Source: Candidatus Desantisbacteria bacterium CG1_02_38_46
GTDB taxonomy: Bacteria; Desantisbacteria; UBA1551; UBA1559
Direction: 5' to 3'
Assembly: GCA_001871015.1 (NCBI GenBank)
Contig: MNUO01000105.1
Coordinates: 1-6,543, forward strand
Length of the DNA: 6,543 bases
Below are positions 1 through 6,543 of the stretch, in pieces; position 1 is the stretch's first letter; every line of letters begins with the position of its first letter. A program made the translations under genes and the position numbers. The notes below the pieces were generated by a model. The model saw only the letters and a program-made list of their open reading frames with translations, was not told the DNA's origin and did not search any database.

Positions 1-880
1 CATCGACCAGGCTGGATATGAGTTCGTTAACAGTGTCAATGACTAAATGATGGAGTTTTTCAAGGCCTTCAGATTTTTCAGCGTACATTATGCGGGTTAT
101 CACATCATCTCCATAAGTTACCTGGCGATTATGAGATGCTTTTGTGCCAAGAGTTTTTCGCGTATTCAGGTCAACAAGATTGGCTGCGATTGTGGTGGTT
201 CCAATATCCAGGGATATGCCGTAATTCCTCTTTGAAGTATCTCCTGGTTCTATGAAGACCACTTCTGTAGTTCCATTTCTCTTTCCTAATGTAACAGTGG
301 CCTGCCAGTTGCTCTCTCTCAGGAGTCGCCCCATCTTTTTAACATTGGCAAGTCCTGTCTGTATAATTGGTACATCCACATGTCGTCTTATTTCACGATA
401 CAATCTTTCCAGGTCACTGATGTTATCGTTAAGTGTTGGAGGAGATAATTTAAGAAAGAGCTTCGTAGCAAGTGGTGAGTGGGTGAACGTTTTCCTTTCT
501 TTTATCTCAATATCTTTTCCAATTTTTTCTGCTTTACTGAAAACTCCCGCCATTCTTTCAATTTTTGCCTCTTCAGTCAATATCTGTTCTTTTCTTAACC
601 TCGAGGCTGGCGGAACCTCAACTTCTATATCGCTGTGTATGGTTGAACGGCAGGCAAGCACATAACCTTTTTCTTGTTCCTCCCTGGATATGCGGCCGGT
701 TGGCTCAGAAAGGACATTTCCACTTTTAACTATGACCTTGCATCTGCCACAAACTCCTTCTCCTCCGCAGGAAGAATTTATATAGATTCCTGCACCAGCA
801 GCTGCATCAAGGATGTCAGTTCCTTTTGCCACCCTGATCTTCTTTTCATCAGGATAAAATGTTACTGTGCAATCACTCAT
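1..880 (-). CDS. acsV: RACo, reductive activator of the corrinoid iron-sulfur protein (5' part, cut by window edge)
   Basis: The first 293 residues are present; the frame is open through the left edge, and family members are usually about 600-650 residues, so roughly half is missing. Residues 1 to about 95 form a plant-type [2Fe-2S] ferredoxin domain with ligands C38, C44, C47 and C77 (C-x5-C-x2-C-x29-C, core CGGEGVCGRC). A linker and middle domain follow. From about residue 220 the ASKHA (actin-like) ATPase domain begins with GISLDIGTTT, the phosphate-binding loop. By family knowledge, RACo uses ATP hydrolysis to pass an electron from its [2Fe-2S] cluster to inactive Co(II) CFeSP, returning it to the Co(I) methyl acceptor; it acts in the cytoplasm. 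The start is the ATG at 880, which overlaps the end of the upstream gene by 8 nt, with GGAG 9 nt upstream. That overlap points to translational coupling. Related ferredoxin-ASKHA activators serve O-demethylase corrinoid proteins, but the acs context favours AcsV. Confidence 0.93.
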   Translation of the reverse strand, partial: MSDCTVTFYPDEKKIRVAKGTDILDAAAGAGIYINSSCGGEGVCGRCKVIVKSGNVLSEPTGRISREEQEKGYVLACRSTIHSDIEVEVPPASRLRKEQILTEEAKIERMAGVFSKAEKIGKDIEIKERKTFTHSPLATKLFLKLSPPTLNDNISDLERLYREIRRHVDVPIIQTGLANVKKMGRLLRESNWQATVTLGKRNGTTEVVFIEPGDTSKRNYGISLDIGTTTIAANLVDLNTRKTLGTKASHNRQVTYGDDVITRIMYAEKSEGLEKLHHLVIDTVNELISSLVD

Positions 881-1475
881 AATCCTTTTCTCCCGGTTTA
901 GTTACAAGTTCCTTAACTAATTCTTCACAGGCCACCGCAATACCTTCTGTTGAGAGATAATCTGAGATACTTGAATCAAAGAGGACTTTGCAATCAGGTG
1001 GAAATTCTTCATCGCCAGGATATAGAATAAAAGTTACCAGAACTTTAGGAAAAACTTGAAATGTCAATGCAAAATTACCATATTCTGCTTTTATTCCTCC
1101 AAAAGATTTGCCAGCTTCCATAAATACTTCAGGGTTATTGCCAAATGTTTTCAACAATGGTTTGTGTACCCTTGCTTCAAAAACTGAATAATACATATTT
1201 CCACCAGGAACAAGTCTAAAATCTATCAATTTTCCAGTTAAAAGGGTTGTCTTACTTGTGATTATGTAGTGGAGAATTAAATTTTTTTGATTGTCTGTTA
1301 ATTTAACATCAGGAGAAGTAATTTCTACTTCTGGTAAATGGATTATATAATCAGAATTCAAATATCGGACTATTATTGTTTTTTCATCTTTTAAAATTGC
1401 TCCACTTTTTTGGCAGGCCTCTTTTACATCTATTTTTTTAAATTCTTCAATAGTCAATTCAAGCGATTCTTTCAT
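873..1475 (-). CDS. DUF3786-like protein of the acs operon
   Basis: A 200-residue soluble protein with no signal peptide or membrane segment. I assign it to the DUF3786 family from memory of its pattern: a PGG turn at 90-92, a SFGG motif at 124-127, GDEEFP at 154-159, then LFDSS at 165-169 and a YLSTE helix start at 173-177. The biochemical function is unknown to me. It has only three cysteines (21, 162, 183), too scattered for an obvious iron-sulfur site, while the acidic GDEEFP stretch and following LFD are its most motif-like part. It starts 7 nt after the acsE stop with no clear Shine-Dalgarno site before the ATG, and it overlaps acsV by 8 nt. It is therefore probably translated by coupling to acsE. 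Position between the methyltransferase and the CFeSP activator suggests a role in corrinoid protein maturation, activation or regulation; that is inference only. Confidence 0.82.
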   Translation of the reverse strand: MKESLELTIEEFKKIDVKEACQKSGAILKDEKTIIVRYLNSDYIIHLPEVEITSPDVKLTDNQKNLILHYIITSKTTLLTGKLIDFRLVPGGNMYYSVFEARVHKPLLKTFGNNPEVFMEAGKSFGGIKAEYGNFALTFQVFPKVLVTFILYPGDEEFPPDCKVLFDSSISDYLSTEGIAVACEELVKELVTKPGEKDYE

Positions 1476-1482
1476 TTTATTA

Positions 1483-2385
1483 TCACAATTTGAGCCAGGA
1501 GTGGGAGTAAAGAGAGTGACCTAACAGAACCTTTGTGGTCTTCAGATAATTTATCTCTTCCTCGCTCAAGTTACCCCCCTTCGAAACGGGTTCCTTTCCA
1601 TCCACTACATCCCAGACTAATTTCTTCAAATTTTCCCCACCCACCTTCGGCGGGTACCCGCCTTTTGCTATCTGAATCAGTTCTTTATCGAATGCATCAA
1701 CTATTGCTGAGGACATTCCATATTTTTCGAGTATCATCAGATATGTCCGGTTTAGAATTGGGCGCAATTCAGAAGGTGCTCCATTTGAGACATTGGAGAG
1801 TCCACAGGTTGCTCTGCATCCTGGTAAAATGTCTTTGAACATTGTCATAAATTCTGTGCATCCCCTGACCTGGTCCTGCTGAGATGATACAGGAAGTACA
1901 ATTGGGTCAATCCAGATATCTTCACTTGGAATTCCAGATTCTGCAGCTCTGGTTGTCAATTCTACTGCAAGTGCTGCTCTTTCATTGGCGTCTCTGGGTA
2001 TACCTTCAGAACCCAAAAGTAAACCAACAAATCCAGCATTGTATTTCTTTGCAAGTGGAAGCAGAGCATTCATTACTTCGGGTTTACAGGAGATGGAATT
2101 GATAATTGCTTTACCCTTGTGAACCTTGAGTCCTGCCTCTATTGCCTCGATATTTGTAGTATCCAGAAAAAGAGGTAAATCTGCTACTTCCTGGACTGTT
2201 TTCACCAGCCACTGCATTGTTTCAGGTCCCTGTTTTCTCGCAGGTCCCATATTTATGTCTATATAATCCATCCCTCTCTCCTTCTCCTTTATTGCCATTT
2301 CCTGAACAGGTTTCGCTTCCCGGTTCTTTATTGCAGGACCAAGCACGCTTGACATTACATTTAAATTTTCTCCAACAAGAATCAT
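1483..2385 (-). CDS. acsE: 5-methyltetrahydrofolate:corrinoid iron-sulfur protein methyltransferase (MeTr)
   Basis: This cytoplasmic enzyme transfers the methyl group of CH3-H4folate to Co(I) of CFeSP, linking the methyl and carbonyl branches of the Wood-Ljungdahl pathway. The protein is a pterin-binding TIM barrel of the MeTr/DHPS fold. Visible conserved elements are DINMGPA (43-49), LDTTN with D75, IINS with N96, WIDPIVLP with D160, and GLSNVS with N198, the position matching the Asn that assists N5 protonation in the Moorella enzyme (N199 there). At 300 residues it is longer than the classical enzyme (about 262); the extra length is a segment at about 238-283, before the terminal helix (VLLGHSLYSHSWLKL). 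The ATG at 2385 is preceded by AGGAGG with a 6-nt spacer. It lies between acsC and the DUF3786 gene. MetH-like or mtgA-type methyltransferases share the fold, but the neighbours settle the assignment. Confidence 0.96.
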   Translation of the reverse strand: MILVGENLNVMSSVLGPAIKNREAKPVQEMAIKEKERGMDYIDINMGPARKQGPETMQWLVKTVQEVADLPLFLDTTNIEAIEAGLKVHKGKAIINSISCKPEVMNALLPLAKKYNAGFVGLLLGSEGIPRDANERAALAVELTTRAAESGIPSEDIWIDPIVLPVSSQQDQVRGCTEFMTMFKDILPGCRATCGLSNVSNGAPSELRPILNRTYLMILEKYGMSSAIVDAFDKELIQIAKGGYPPKVGGENLKKLVWDVVDGKEPVSKGGNLSEEEINYLKTTKVLLGHSLYSHSWLKL

Positions 2386-2399: not shown

Positions 2400-2467
2400 G
2401 GTGTCAGGTCTTGACATGTAACTCAGGACTTTAGTCCTGACACCTCAAAATGTCAAGACCTGACACC
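2400..2467. repeat. Nested inverted repeat between acsC and acsE
   Basis: The outer arms are a perfect 18-bp inverted repeat, 2400-2417 (GGTGTCAGGTCTTGACAT) and 2450-2467. Inside lies a second perfect palindrome, TCAGGACT at 2423-2430 and its complement at 2433-2440. The core TCAGGWCT therefore occurs four times in 60 nt, twice on each strand (2404, 2423, 2433, 2456). On the minus strand a related 14-nt unit also appears as a direct repeat (2433-2446 and 2456-2469, 13 of 14 identical). The outer arm encodes the last four AcsC residues (GVRS) and the TGA. There is no U tract after either stem, so it does not look like an intrinsic terminator. It resembles a REP- or MITE-like dispersed palindromic element, or an RNA-processing or stability hairpin. 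Confidence 0.88.
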
Positions 2468-3805
2468 TCTTTCTCTTAAAAACACGGGAATATGAGCGGC
2501 TTCACGAGGGCCGATTATTATTTCCCACCCCTGTAGTTCTTCTTCCAGTTCGCCAGAAATTCTTGCAACCGCACCAGGAATGATAAGTTTTTTGTGTTTT
2601 ACTTTATCGGTAATTCCAGATTTCTTTACAAGTGCTGCAATTGTCTCCGCTACAAATTTATCAGCAGCCCATGCCGTGAGAACTGAAAGTCCTTCTGCAT
2701 CCTGCACCAGTAACCATGCCGGAACTCTGCTTGATTCTATTTCGCCTGAAACAATGAAATATGTTAGTGAAAAGTTTGTTGTGACAAGTAATGGTGAATT
2801 TTCATCGGGCCTACCTATCTCATATATTCCTTCCTTAGTAGCCATAGGTCTTTGAGGATCAGTGAAGATGTTCATTCTTGTTATGAGAAGAGGGAAGAGG
2901 CTTTCTCCATAAAAATCTGAAAGCACAATAATCCCAGCATATTTTGCAATTAAAGTTGATGCAATAAGTGTTTCTTTCATCGGGTCTTCTGTCATTTCAC
3001 AGGGAAATGCAATTGTTGGAAATCCAAGCGGGCGAAATTTATTCAGAAGGGGTGCTCTCCTTATAATTATTTGATCCTCTAAGACATTGCGAAGGTTTCT
3101 TGTACCCGAATCAAGAACCAGGTCCTTCAGTCCGCCACCTTCTAATTTCTGGGTGAGTTCTACTAGTGTATCAAGATTTTTGCCATACACTGTTAGGGGG
3201 CAGGAACTCTCCTTTGCAATCTTTGCCATAGCGTCGGCATTTTCTTTATTGGCAGCGCATATCAATGGTTTGAGGTCCTGGCAGGCTTTTACTCCAGCAG
3301 CCATAACCTCTGGATTATTGCTCATCAGTACAATTCCAGCTTTGATTTTTCCTTTCACTTTGTTGACAATGGCTTCAAATTTAGCCGGGTCCGCTGAGGT
3401 ATCCTTTATTGCTATGAGGTTAGGTTTGAGAATAAGTCCGACTCTTTCGTATTGAAGTTCGTTGAATTTTTTAATTCTTTCCTGTATCTGTGCATCATCC
3501 ATTTCACTGGTAATTAGGATTGCAATGCCAGGTGGATTGACAAAGGTTTTCTCATGGCGAAACATAACTGTTTCTCCACCAATTTTAAGAGCATTATCTC
3601 CTGCTCCAATGGTAATAGGTCGAATCGGAGGAGCAGATGCCTCAGCAAGTTCAGCCTTCGCTTCATCAGTTACAAAAGGACAGGCATCCAGTTCAGCTTT
3701 TCCACCAGCAAGTTGCATGGCAAATGCAAGGCAGGTCGGTACTCCACACTTTCCACAGTTTGTCTTCGGTAACTTCTTATAAATCTCAATTCCTGTCAAA
3801 GCCAT
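2453..3805 (-). CDS. acsC: Corrinoid iron-sulfur protein, large (gamma) subunit
   Basis: The 450-residue cytoplasmic protein carries methyl groups on a cobamide between MeTr and acetyl-CoA synthase. The N-terminal domain holds the low-potential [4Fe-4S] cluster site, C17, C20, C25 and C42 (NCGKCGVPTC motif), which feeds electrons to cobalt. A TIM-barrel domain spans roughly 60-325 (for example LKDLVLDSGTRN at 226-237). The C-terminal cobamide-binding domain starts near TTNFSLTYF (342-350) and includes LLVQDAEGLSVLTAWAADKF (365-384), LIIPGAVARISG (407-418) and IIGPREA (430-436). Length matches the family (about 445). The ATG at 3805 has GGAGGT 5 nt upstream. The last four residues and stop come from a palindromic repeat, so the natural C-terminus may have been replaced. 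Its obligatory partner AcsD is not encoded beside it. The archaeal homologue is CdhE, but the rest of the operon is bacterial. Confidence 0.97.
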   Translation of the reverse strand: MALTGIEIYKKLPKTNCGKCGVPTCLAFAMQLAGGKAELDACPFVTDEAKAELAEASAPPIRPITIGAGDNALKIGGETVMFRHEKTFVNPPGIAILITSEMDDAQIQERIKKFNELQYERVGLILKPNLIAIKDTSADPAKFEAIVNKVKGKIKAGIVLMSNNPEVMAAGVKACQDLKPLICAANKENADAMAKIAKESSCPLTVYGKNLDTLVELTQKLEGGGLKDLVLDSGTRNLRNVLEDQIIIRRAPLLNKFRPLGFPTIAFPCEMTEDPMKETLIASTLIAKYAGIIVLSDFYGESLFPLLITRMNIFTDPQRPMATKEGIYEIGRPDENSPLLVTTNFSLTYFIVSGEIESSRVPAWLLVQDAEGLSVLTAWAADKFVAETIAALVKKSGITDKVKHKKLIIPGAVARISGELEEELQGWEIIIGPREAAHIPVFLRERGVRS

Positions 3806-3810
3806 TCTCT

Positions 3811-3816
3811 ACCTCC
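3811..3816 (-). promoter_or_regulatory. Shine-Dalgarno site of acsC
   Basis: GGAGGT on the minus strand, 5 nt before the acsC ATG. This strong site supports the chosen start and allows independent initiation after the 65-nt gap that follows acsB. Confidence 0.75.
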
Positions 3817-3827
3817 AGTCTAAAAAT

Positions 3828-3866
3828 AGGGACAGCGACCATTAAAAAGTAAGAACCTGCGTCCCC
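3828..3866. repeat. Imperfect palindrome in the acsB-acsC spacer
   Basis: The segment begins with GGGACAGC on the plus strand and ends with GCGTCCCC. In a minus-strand transcript GGGAC-GC can pair with GC-U-GUCCC, a 7-bp stem with one bulged U and a loop of about 24 nt that is rich in A and U. The next bases, UAUUUUUAG, contain a short U run. It could be a decayed REP-like element or a weak attenuator between acsB and acsC. The long loop and short stem argue against an efficient terminator. Confidence 0.5.
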
Positions 3867-3870
3867 TTTT

Positions 3871-6075
3871 CTAAAGTATTGGTTCCATTTCTAATGCTGG
3901 ATGTTTCTTTTCCTGCAGAAATGGAAGGATTTCTTCCTCTGTTGCTCCTATTGTCTCATCCGCAATTCTATCCAGGAGATCTGGAATTCCTATTTCCTCT
4001 GCACGCTTCTTAAATCTCTCTCCTATCTCTTCTTTGAGCATCCTTGGCATCCATACTATTCTTTTTATTCCTCCATCACCAACAATAAATTTTCTCTGGC
4101 AAATATTATATTTAGAGTGTCCTACAAATCCAGGAGTTGAAAGCCCTCCACCAATTGTTCCGGCAAGAGTTGTAAATTTCATTCCGCACGGAGTCATTCT
4201 ATCATATTCGCGATTTACCGTCATCACACCATTACAAAGAGGAAGAACAACGCATATACATTCACAGCATCCACAGGTTGTCATAGGGTCATGAACAACA
4301 CTATAAAAATTATAGTGGTCTATTTTGCCACGAGAAGCTTTATAGATAAATTCATTGACTCCTTTCCACTGTCCAAGTTTTGGGTCTATTGCTTGTCCTT
4401 TTTCAACTGGTTGGTTTGGACCTGTTGGATTAATTTCATTGGATGCTTTGCAATCCATCCAGTTATATGCTCCACAAAGCCCGGTCCTTTCAGGGCTTAC
4501 CATACAGACATGTGAGGGAGCAAAACTCTGACAAAGCGTACAGGAATAGTAAGTTTCTATTGTTTCATCTGTCATACCTTCAATTCTTGCATCCCTTTTT
4601 CTATATACACCTCTTGCTTTTTCAAGAATTTCCTTAACTTTATCTTCTTCTGTATAAATTTTTATTTGCACCTTATCAAATATTCTTCCAAAATCCTGGT
4701 GATACTTAGCATGAATTATTGAGCCAATGTGCTTTAATCTGAATCCTTTTTCTTTTGCCTGCTTGCCGATTCTAAGCCAGGCGATATCCCTCTGTCCTAT
4801 ATGCATTACACCCTGTGCATAATTTATGAGATGGTGTATCTGGCGTTCGAGTATTGGTTCAAAATCCTCCTGCATTTCTCTTCCTGCAACCTCGGCTAAA
4901 ATAGCGAGTGGAAGTTGTGCTCCTTCAGGAATATTATCTAAGTCAGGACCAATTACCTCTATTTTTCCATCCTCAACTTCATCCATTGGTTTCATTGTTG
5001 TCCATTCACAAACATGCGTTACACCGCCGCGGAATTCTGCATAGAGTTCTTCTTTCCTGATTCTTTCTCCTTCAAAAGCAGGCCCATATGCGACAGGAAC
5101 CGGAACTTCTGCAGTTGTTACTTTCAATCCCCTGACCTCAATTGACTTCGCAACAATCTGGTCATGGGGGACATTAGAAACTACATGTTCGTATGTGCAA
5201 ATACCTGTTGGAAGTACTTGTGGAATTGCTGTATCTGCAATTGTTGGAAAGCCCCAGTTAATTGCACCAGCAGCATTTGCGTACCATTCTTCGTTCACAT
5301 ATCCCAGTGCCATAACAAATGCAAAAATCCTATCTTTATTATATATTAATATTTTTCTGTATTCCCCGGGTTTGATGCCACCAAAGGACATTGCAGCTCT
5401 TGTAGCAAATCCGATTGCAAATACTGCTGCTGAAATATCAGGACCAAAAGACACTAATCTTGTTGGCCAGCCAATCTGAACTTTTGCTTCAACGAGTTGC
5501 TGGGAAAATTTCTTCCCGTTGTGTTCAGCACACATAAATACATAGAGGTTTTTCTCCTGAAGTTCCTGTGCAATCTTTGCAGCAATCTGTGCATCAGGAG
5601 CAGCACCAGCTATTGCGGCGAAACCAGGAGCTGTGCCATCAACGAATTCTATGCCTCTTTTTCTCATAATCACATCGTCAGCTGCACCAAGCCATATATT
5701 GCCATCAAGAGGATCTTCCTGCTTTGTATAGAATTTAGGTTCTTCAAGATATCGAATTCCCTCAATAATTTCTTCTGCAAATAGAGTTGTCATACCAGCG
5801 TCAAGTGCTGGTGCCAGATAGGGTAGGGGATGGTTCTCCCGGACAAAAGAAGGAAGAAGTTCCCTGCATTTTTTCAAAACTACTTCTACATCAGTTAAAG
5901 TTTTTACCGGTATTCCGAGGATTCCGTAGATTATAGGAAGGTAATAAGCAGTGTTCGGAAAACCTATTTCCTGATTTGGACCGAATTTATCTACAGCCTC
6001 CTTGAATTTTTTCTCTGCCCTCTCAACAATTTTGTGTGCTCCTCTTATTGCTGCTGAAGCAATTATTTTTGACAT
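3871..6075 (-). CDS. acsB: Acetyl-CoA synthase (ACS, alpha subunit of CODH/ACS)
   Basis: The enzyme condenses CO, the methyl group of CFeSP and CoA into acetyl-CoA. At 734 residues it matches the bacterial enzyme (729 in Moorella). By homology the N-terminal domain (about 1-315) contacts CODH and carries the CO tunnel, the middle domain spans about 316-505, and the C-terminal domain holds the A-cluster. The [4Fe-4S] ligands are C512, C515, C524 and C534, with C515 also bridging to the proximal nickel. The C601-G602-C603 motif binds the distal nickel. F518 sits where the Moorella A-cluster phenylalanine (F512) lies. Further conserved blocks are TLAGTIGGG (636-644) and IADETIG (704-710). The loop after the CGC motif is unusually cysteine-rich (C604, C606, C608). 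The ATG at 6075 has AAAGGAG 6 nt upstream and follows the CODH stop by 13 nt, so the two subunits are co-translated. Archaeal CdhC lacks the N-terminal domain, so this is the bacterial type. Confidence 0.98.
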   Translation of the reverse strand: MSKIIASAAIRGAHKIVERAEKKFKEAVDKFGPNQEIGFPNTAYYLPIIYGILGIPVKTLTDVEVVLKKCRELLPSFVRENHPLPYLAPALDAGMTTLFAEEIIEGIRYLEEPKFYTKQEDPLDGNIWLGAADDVIMRKRGIEFVDGTAPGFAAIAGAAPDAQIAAKIAQELQEKNLYVFMCAEHNGKKFSQQLVEAKVQIGWPTRLVSFGPDISAAVFAIGFATRAAMSFGGIKPGEYRKILIYNKDRIFAFVMALGYVNEEWYANAAGAINWGFPTIADTAIPQVLPTGICTYEHVVSNVPHDQIVAKSIEVRGLKVTTAEVPVPVAYGPAFEGERIRKEELYAEFRGGVTHVCEWTTMKPMDEVEDGKIEVIGPDLDNIPEGAQLPLAILAEVAGREMQEDFEPILERQIHHLINYAQGVMHIGQRDIAWLRIGKQAKEKGFRLKHIGSIIHAKYHQDFGRIFDKVQIKIYTEEDKVKEILEKARGVYRKRDARIEGMTDETIETYYSCTLCQSFAPSHVCMVSPERTGLCGAYNWMDCKASNEINPTGPNQPVEKGQAIDPKLGQWKGVNEFIYKASRGKIDHYNFYSVVHDPMTTCGCCECICVVLPLCNGVMTVNREYDRMTPCGMKFTTLAGTIGGGLSTPGFVGHSKYNICQRKFIVGDGGIKRIVWMPRMLKEEIGERFKKRAEEIGIPDLLDRIADETIGATEEEILPFLQEKKHPALEMEPIL

Positions 6076-6088: not shown

Positions 6089-6543
6089 CTACACGGCGTC
6101 AAGTTCTCTTCGCTTTGCCATATCAAAAAGAACTCTTTCCCTTGTTTTATCAATTCCAAGTGCTTTTCGTTTTTTATCTATGTGTTCAATCATCAGTTTT
6201 GCTGCTTTTATAGGGTCTGGTTCAAATGCCCATTTACCTTTGAGTGTGTTCTCGTATTCCTCAAAAAGTAATTTTGTCAATTTTTCACTACCAAGTGTTG
6301 GCCAGGTAACACCAAATACAGTAAACACTCCACTTGCTACAAAATACTGGCCTATTGAAATTGCTTTTTCGCTCATCCATTCAGGCGCAGCACCTGCAGC
6401 AGGTAAATCAGATATGTCATCTCCCAGCCCTCCTTCTTTTACCATTGCTGAAGCAGCTATGAGAATTCTTGAGTTATCAACGCAGGAACCCATATGTATA
6501 ACAGGTGGGATTCCGACAGTTTCGCATACTTCAGCAAGTCCTG
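6089..6543 (-). CDS. acsA: Ni-Fe carbon monoxide dehydrogenase, CODH subunit of CODH/ACS (3' end, cut by window edge)
   Basis: The C-terminal 150 residues are present and the frame stays open to the right edge; the family is about 630-680 residues, so most of the gene lies outside. The enzyme interconverts CO2 and CO at the Ni-4Fe-4S C-cluster and channels CO to ACS. The motif HMGSCVDNSR (Cys codon at 6482-6484) supplies the last C-cluster cysteine, matching C526 of Carboxydothermus CODH-II. WMSEKAISIG further on holds the lysine that likely corresponds to the active-site lysine K563. QYFVASGVFTVFGV is also typical of the family. The methionine at 6493 is internal, inside the HMGSC motif, and is not a start. 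The tail runs on past the usual KRKALGI end by about 18 residues (DKTRERVLFDMAKRRELDAV). Position directly before acsB indicates the ACS-linked form rather than a stand-alone cooS. Confidence 0.95.
   Translation of the reverse strand, partial: GLAEVCETVGIPPVIHMGSCVDNSRILIAASAMVKEGGLGDDISDLPAAGAAPEWMSEKAISIGQYFVASGVFTVFGVTWPTLGSEKLTKLLFEEYENTLKGKWAFEPDPIKAAKLMIEHIDKKRKALGIDKTRERVLFDMAKRRELDAV

Follow-up and report, generated by a model that had tools for sequence, protein, structure and literature searches.

The window analysed here is one entire contig of 6,543 nt, with genes in the minus-strand order acsA (end), acsB, acsC, acsE, DUF3786 and acsV (start). The C-terminal part of acsA, the gene for CO dehydrogenase, occupies 6089..6541 on the minus strand. 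It is followed on the same strand by acsB (3871..6075), which encodes a bacterial-type acetyl-CoA synthase (NF040764, 1106 bits), and by acsC (2453..3805), which encodes the large subunit of CFeSP with its N-terminal 4Fe-4S domain (PF04060; NF003195, 641 bits). The next gene on the minus strand, acsE (1483..2385), encodes the methyl-THF:CFeSP methyltransferase and matches PF00809, as well as PRK07535 with E=1e-73, slightly below the PRK07535 cut-off. The DUF3786 gene (873..1475, minus strand) is an open reading frame from ATG to TGA that specifies 200 amino acids. The final gene, acsV (2..880, minus strand), contributes the N-terminal 293 residues of RACo, the reductive activator of CFeSP, and its Fer2, RACo linker and RACo middle domains are all present in Pfam searches. 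The DUF3786 gene is thus the only one in the window without a known function, as the initial annotation had stated.

The gene set continues on two other contigs of the same genome. Contig C17 shares 300 nt with the left end of the window at 100% identity, and acsV continues there. Beyond acsV, C17 carries genes for a YjbQ-like protein, a single-strand-binding protein and a second AcsE-like methyltransferase, the last with 36% identity (L200 3839-4627, G000:C17). Contig C47 carries acsD and the N-terminal part of acsA, together with a cooC fragment, Fe-S genes and hydrogenase/NADH-dehydrogenase-type genes; genes on C17 and C47 that were not scanned are named by resemblance. Since these two contigs complete the gene set, the DUF3786 gene of the window lies within a full Wood-Ljungdahl cluster. 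Two intergenic regions of the window have features of their own. The acsC-acsE gap holds a perfect 18-nt inverted repeat (GGTGTCAGGTCTTGACAT / ATGTCAAGACCTGACACC, within 2400-2467), which looks like a dispersed repeat of the REP/MITE type because pieces of it recur on C17 and C89. The acsB-acsC gap (3806-3870) holds a sequence of the GGGACAGCG...CGCAGG/CCTGCGTCCCC type and resembles another repeat-like insertion between operon genes.

The junctions on either side of the DUF3786 gene are tight. The end of acsE at 1483 is separated from the DUF3786 start by 7 nt (1476..1482, minus strand), and the bases preceding that start (CTCAAATTGTGATAATAAAATG) hold no Shine-Dalgarno sequence. At the other end, the DUF3786 stop at 873 and the acsV start at 880 overlap by 8 nt (873..880, minus strand; ATGAGTGA), and acsV has a Shine-Dalgarno sequence, GGGAG, about 9 nt upstream of its start and within the DUF3786 gene. 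The initial annotation had described the same spacing and the same missing ribosome-binding site, and had taken it that synthesis of the protein appears tied to that of both neighbours. Such a translational lock is real in the window but only partly conserved at most. The sister genome (L014), which holds the nearest relative, keeps the acsA-acsB-acsC-acsE-DUF3786-acsV order with one additional gene ahead of acsE, and its DUF3786 protein is 52% identical to that of the window. There acsE and DUF3786 are separated by 120 nt, a good Shine-Dalgarno sequence (AAGGAG) precedes DUF3786, and only the DUF3786-acsV junction still overlaps. This overlap is also seen in L020, and at other loci the gap between acsE and DUF3786 can be as short as 1 nt or as long as several hundred.

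The protein encoded at 873..1475 matches DUF3786 (PF12654) over profile positions 1-175 of 176 with 167.2 bits (E=3.4e-49), a full-length match far over the Pfam curated cut-off of 27 bits, which bears out the family assignment made from the letters. The conserved HYL, PGG/Y, GD-E-EFPP and LFD motifs of the family are all present, and the start codon is right, as the N-terminus aligns residue by residue with that of the nearest relative. Six positions, Y95, D155, E157, F158, P159 and D167, are invariant in an alignment of 73 DUF3786 sequences; they are mostly acidic or aromatic. H69 and R102 are nearly invariant in the same alignment, and no cysteine is conserved. Judged from sequence, this pattern would suit an interaction surface or a metal/ligand site. 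The AlphaFold2 model of the window protein (pLDDT 95, pTM 0.89) has two helix-sheet-helix halves. A search of the PDB gave no sequence relatives beyond one chance match, and fold searches with the model gave weak matches (best Foldseek E 0.057; best VIA-align Z 6.9 over 96 residues at 4.4 A). Nothing in either fold search rose above noise, and weak likenesses to the KA1, YugN, IclR and lachrymatory-factor-synthase folds were set aside. The missing fold match is not evidence for a new fold. DUF3786 has no match in PHROGs, and a single fragmentary match to an unannotated fecal contig in a phage collection was also set aside.

The distribution of DUF3786 follows that of AcsC closely. In a broad sample of 339 genomes, approximately one per bacterial family, DUF3786 is present in 29, AcsC in 35 and both in 26 (odds ratio 290, p=4e-28), and in a second sample of 299 genomes from one Bacillota phylum, AcsC is present in all 82 DUF3786 carriers while DUF3786 is present in 0 of 204 AcsC-negative genomes (p=3.5e-60); both p-values assume independent genomes, which related genomes are not. 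The exclusivity of DUF3786 to AcsC genomes plainly holds despite this non-independence. The exceptions in the broad sample are G131, whose congener G256 has AcsC, G175, which has CODH only, and G028, which has a broken fragment. A survey of this kind could have spoken against the proposed acs link, and with AcsC in 26 of 29 and 82 of 82 carriers it upheld it. Copies of DUF3786 outside acs clusters follow the same rule, with AcsC in 44 of the 50 genomes that have such a copy among the fetched loci. In two of the six AcsC-negative cases (L031 and L050) the protein is near-identical to that of L056, whose genome has AcsC, so incomplete assemblies likely lie behind such cases. Among 72,556 plasmid records, the one record with DUF3786 is also the one record with AcsC, NZ_CP154629.1. 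This 2.63-Mb record (L198) is labelled plasmid pTPELB2 of Acetoanaerobium noterae. It bears acsC and uvrC-like genes, and it appears to be a mislabelled chromosome of that species.

The implication runs in one direction. AcsC is found without DUF3786 in 9 of 35 genomes of the broad sample and in 13 of 95 of the Bacillota sample, the remaining 82 of which carry both, so DUF3786 is not needed everywhere. A replacement gene was sought in the operons of such genomes and none stood out. In both methanogen controls, M. jannaschii and M. acetivorans, AcsC is present and DUF3786 was not found. CODH (CooS) was rejected as a sufficient partner, given that 8 of 10 genomes of the broad sample with CooS and without AcsC lack DUF3786 and 2 have it. 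The co-occurrence profile cannot tell CFeSP from ACS as the partner, because the two co-occur.

Helicobacter pylori is not known to have the acetyl-CoA (Wood-Ljungdahl) pathway. In the open literature searched, one paper uses the name DUF3786, as a label for the H. pylori protein HP0386 (PMC12666383), and most DUF3786 copies lie outside acs operons; both observations would be expected if the role of DUF3786 lay in general anaerobic metabolism, in lineages that have the pathway by coincidence. The near-perfect one-way implication in the Bacillota sample argues against so indirect a link, and we regard it as highly improbable.

Gene neighbourhoods tie DUF3786 to acs genes in many lineages and in many arrangements. 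A contig scan gave 80 DUF3786 loci, with titles naming Chloroflexi, Deltaproteobacteria, Bacillota, Omnitrophota, Spirochaetes, Armatimonadetes and others. The acsE-DUF3786-acsV arrangement of the window is found in Desantisbacteria, Omnitrophota and one Bacillota locus (L158). In Dehalococcoidia, DUF3786 directly follows acsE or acsE-metF, and in Desulfobacterales it follows acsE. At least five positions occur in Bacillota acs clusters: besides that of L158, DUF3786 lies ahead of acsA (L159), ahead of cooC-acsA (L160 and L085 of Sporomusa ovata DSM 2662, the latter with the order DUF3786-cooC-fhs-acsABC), last in acsV-cooT-DUF3786 (L161, L162), or amid two cooT genes (L164, L165). In 33 genomes of the Bacillota sample a DUF3786 copy and acsC lie no more than 50 kb apart, and they almost always share a strand. 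Adjacency, which the initial annotation had proposed to count across genomes, does recur near acs genes but is infrequent in the broad sample. There, DUF3786 lies in an acs cluster only in G000, G001, G040 and G243 (near acsE) and in G045 (beside acsV), so that just 5 of the 26 genomes with both DUF3786 and AcsC have it near acsE or acsV.

Several of these loci carry further small genes. In two Bacillota acs clusters, cooT-DUF3786 is preceded by a gene of another DUF family, DUF3842 (PF12953; L164 429-860, the copy identified with Pfam, and L165 3023-3463). In L163 a 122-aa His-rich protein without a Pfam match is encoded between DUF3786 and cooC (12073-12441) and resembles a nickel-storage protein of the CooJ type. 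A VapBC-like toxin-antitoxin pair, by appearance, seems to have been inserted between acsE and DUF3786 in the acs operon of G040 (L011 8642-9284).

The immediate neighbours of DUF3786, within 500 bp, are CooC in 16 cases, AcsE in 14 and AcsV in 8. CooC is thus as frequent a neighbour as AcsE and more frequent than AcsV, which points to nickel insertion as much as to CFeSP. Many Deltaproteobacteria have a DUF3786-cooC pair, and such pairs stand alone in Desulfobacterota. The CooC neighbours carry the CxC motif of CooC, a search with one of them gave a match to CooC of PDB 3KJE, and CooT (PF10133) flanks DUF3786 in L161 and L164. The main rival to a role on CFeSP is therefore one in which DUF3786 matures a nickel centre together with the CooC/AcsF ATPase and CooT, at the A-cluster of ACS or the C-cluster of CODH, and its proximity to CFeSP genes is incidental. 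The lack of DUF3786 in most genomes with CooS and without AcsC indicates that DUF3786 does not act on CODH nickel alone, and adjacency to acsE and acsV suits CFeSP better, as do the Fe-S fusions described below. We consider nickel maturation somewhat unlikely on balance.

Within the family as a whole, operon membership is changeable. Of 135 DUF3786 sequences, 36 lie near acs genes. On a tree of these 135 proteins the acs-linked label requires 15 changes, at least 8 of which are forced by well-supported branches, so the linkage has been gained or lost many times. Several genomes (G131, G217, G256, G425, G456 and G534) have 2 to 5 diverged DUF3786 copies. These features bear on two further explanations. 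DUF3786 could belong to the CODH/ACS-CFeSP-AcsE assembly as a structural or docking subunit and hold CFeSP in position for methyl transfer, in keeping with a gene placed between subunit genes of the operon and with the compact, highly conserved fold predicted by the model, in which no catalytic-looking cysteine appears. It would, however, be unusual for a stoichiometric subunit to be missing from part of the AcsC-positive bacteria and often encoded elsewhere, and a single genome can hold as many as five copies; we judge this role improbable. Regulation of the pathway by DUF3786 as a redox or ligand sensor would be consistent with multiple copies, some of them near housekeeping genes, and with the weak, non-significant fold likeness to IclR ligand-binding and KA1 domains. 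DUF3786 has no DNA-binding domain and recurs within a structural operon, both of which make a sensor more improbable still.

Fusion proteins also point to CFeSP. Six DUF3786 proteins from five genomes (L099, L101, L105, L117, L122 and L123) have an N-terminal 4Fe-4S domain, which is PF04060 in the five scanned with Pfam. The best NCBIfam match of this domain in the same five is to positions 1-56 of AcsC, with 47-58 bits against 20-26 bits for the best RnfB-type model; the AcsC model exceeds the best RnfB model by 22-36 bits. In AcsC, the 4Fe-4S domain is the electron route to cobalt in CFeSP. The fusions form one group with long branches in the 135-protein tree, and on this ground may have a single origin. 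G242, a single-contig genome, encodes no DUF3786 protein other than the fusion. The window protein has no N-terminal PF04060 domain and consists of the DUF3786 domain alone, which places it outside the fusion subfamily.

DUF3786 is very probably an accessory factor of CODH/ACS, a role common to the CFeSP and nickel explanations: the family is almost confined to AcsC genomes and recurs in acs operons, in line with the candidacy that the initial annotation had put forward. That annotation had tentatively placed it in the corrinoid cycle, and here the accessory role stands while action on CFeSP itself, in cofactor loading, assembly or redox control, is less firm, being drawn from the AcsC-type Fe-S fusions and the acsV and acsE neighbours. 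From these sequence-level comparisons we infer, with a modest lean in favour, that DUF3786 works as an accessory protein dedicated to the bacterial CODH/ACS-CFeSP system rather than as a pathway enzyme, that its likeliest client is CFeSP (AcsC-AcsD), and that its job would be cofactor maturation or reactivation. The identity of the client is a less certain step than the accessory role. DUF3786 would bind CFeSP, probably near the 4Fe-4S domain of AcsC, and help to load or repair CFeSP cofactors. Alternatively, it might hand CFeSP to the reductive activator AcsV or aid reactivation by AcsV; RACo brings Co(II) CFeSP back to Co(I) with the use of ATP (PMC4934906). Both versions are suggested by the overlap or direct adjacency of DUF3786 and acsV in several lineages and by the fusion of DUF3786, elsewhere, to an AcsC-type Fe-S domain.

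The acetyl-CoA pathway is regarded as among the oldest routes of CO2 fixation and is being engineered for gas fermentation. An overlooked conserved accessory factor, if DUF3786 proves to be one, would bear on the difficulty of producing CODH/ACS and CFeSP in foreign hosts and would be an engineering target in acetogens. The family also gains its first functional context, one that is directly testable in tractable acetogens. The open literature searched contained no functional report on DUF3786 that we could find, and PF12654 was not found there. A study of CODH gene context associates CooT and Hdr-like proteins with the pathway, and no DUF or hypothetical proteins were found in its main text (PMC6344411). 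The acs cluster of Acetobacterium woodii has hypothetical proteins Orf1/Orf2 of about 215-219 aa directly after acsV, and that of Eubacterium limosum has the unnamed ELIM_c1649 right after acsV (PMC3315566, PMC6925170, PMC5651825). Their size or position fits DUF3786, which also follows acsV in L161; the likeness is by description only, and identity is a lead.

To PF12654, a family without an assigned function, the present analysis adds a link to CFeSP genomes. Among known accessory proteins, AcsV/RACo resembles DUF3786 in its operon, its overlapping gene, its presumed CFeSP client and its status as a dedicated accessory protein. RACo differs in having a 2Fe-2S domain and an ASKHA-type ATPase part, whereas DUF3786 has neither, lacks the Fer2, RACo linker and RACo middle domains in Pfam searches, and has no sequence similarity to RACo. 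CooC/AcsF and CooT are likewise small dedicated accessory genes that share operons with DUF3786 and are often its direct neighbours. DUF3786 differs from them in lacking a P-loop and a CxC motif and in not being CooT-like, with no sequence similarity and no Pfam match to a P-loop ATPase domain or PF10133 at E up to 1. Beside the CooC/AcsF nickel ATPases and AcsV, DUF3786 may tentatively be counted as a third, so far unrecognised class of accessory factor for CODH/ACS. It would then be a chaperone or electron-entry factor for CFeSP, used by most acetyl-CoA-pathway bacteria and in some versions equipped with an AcsC-type 4Fe-4S cluster of its own.
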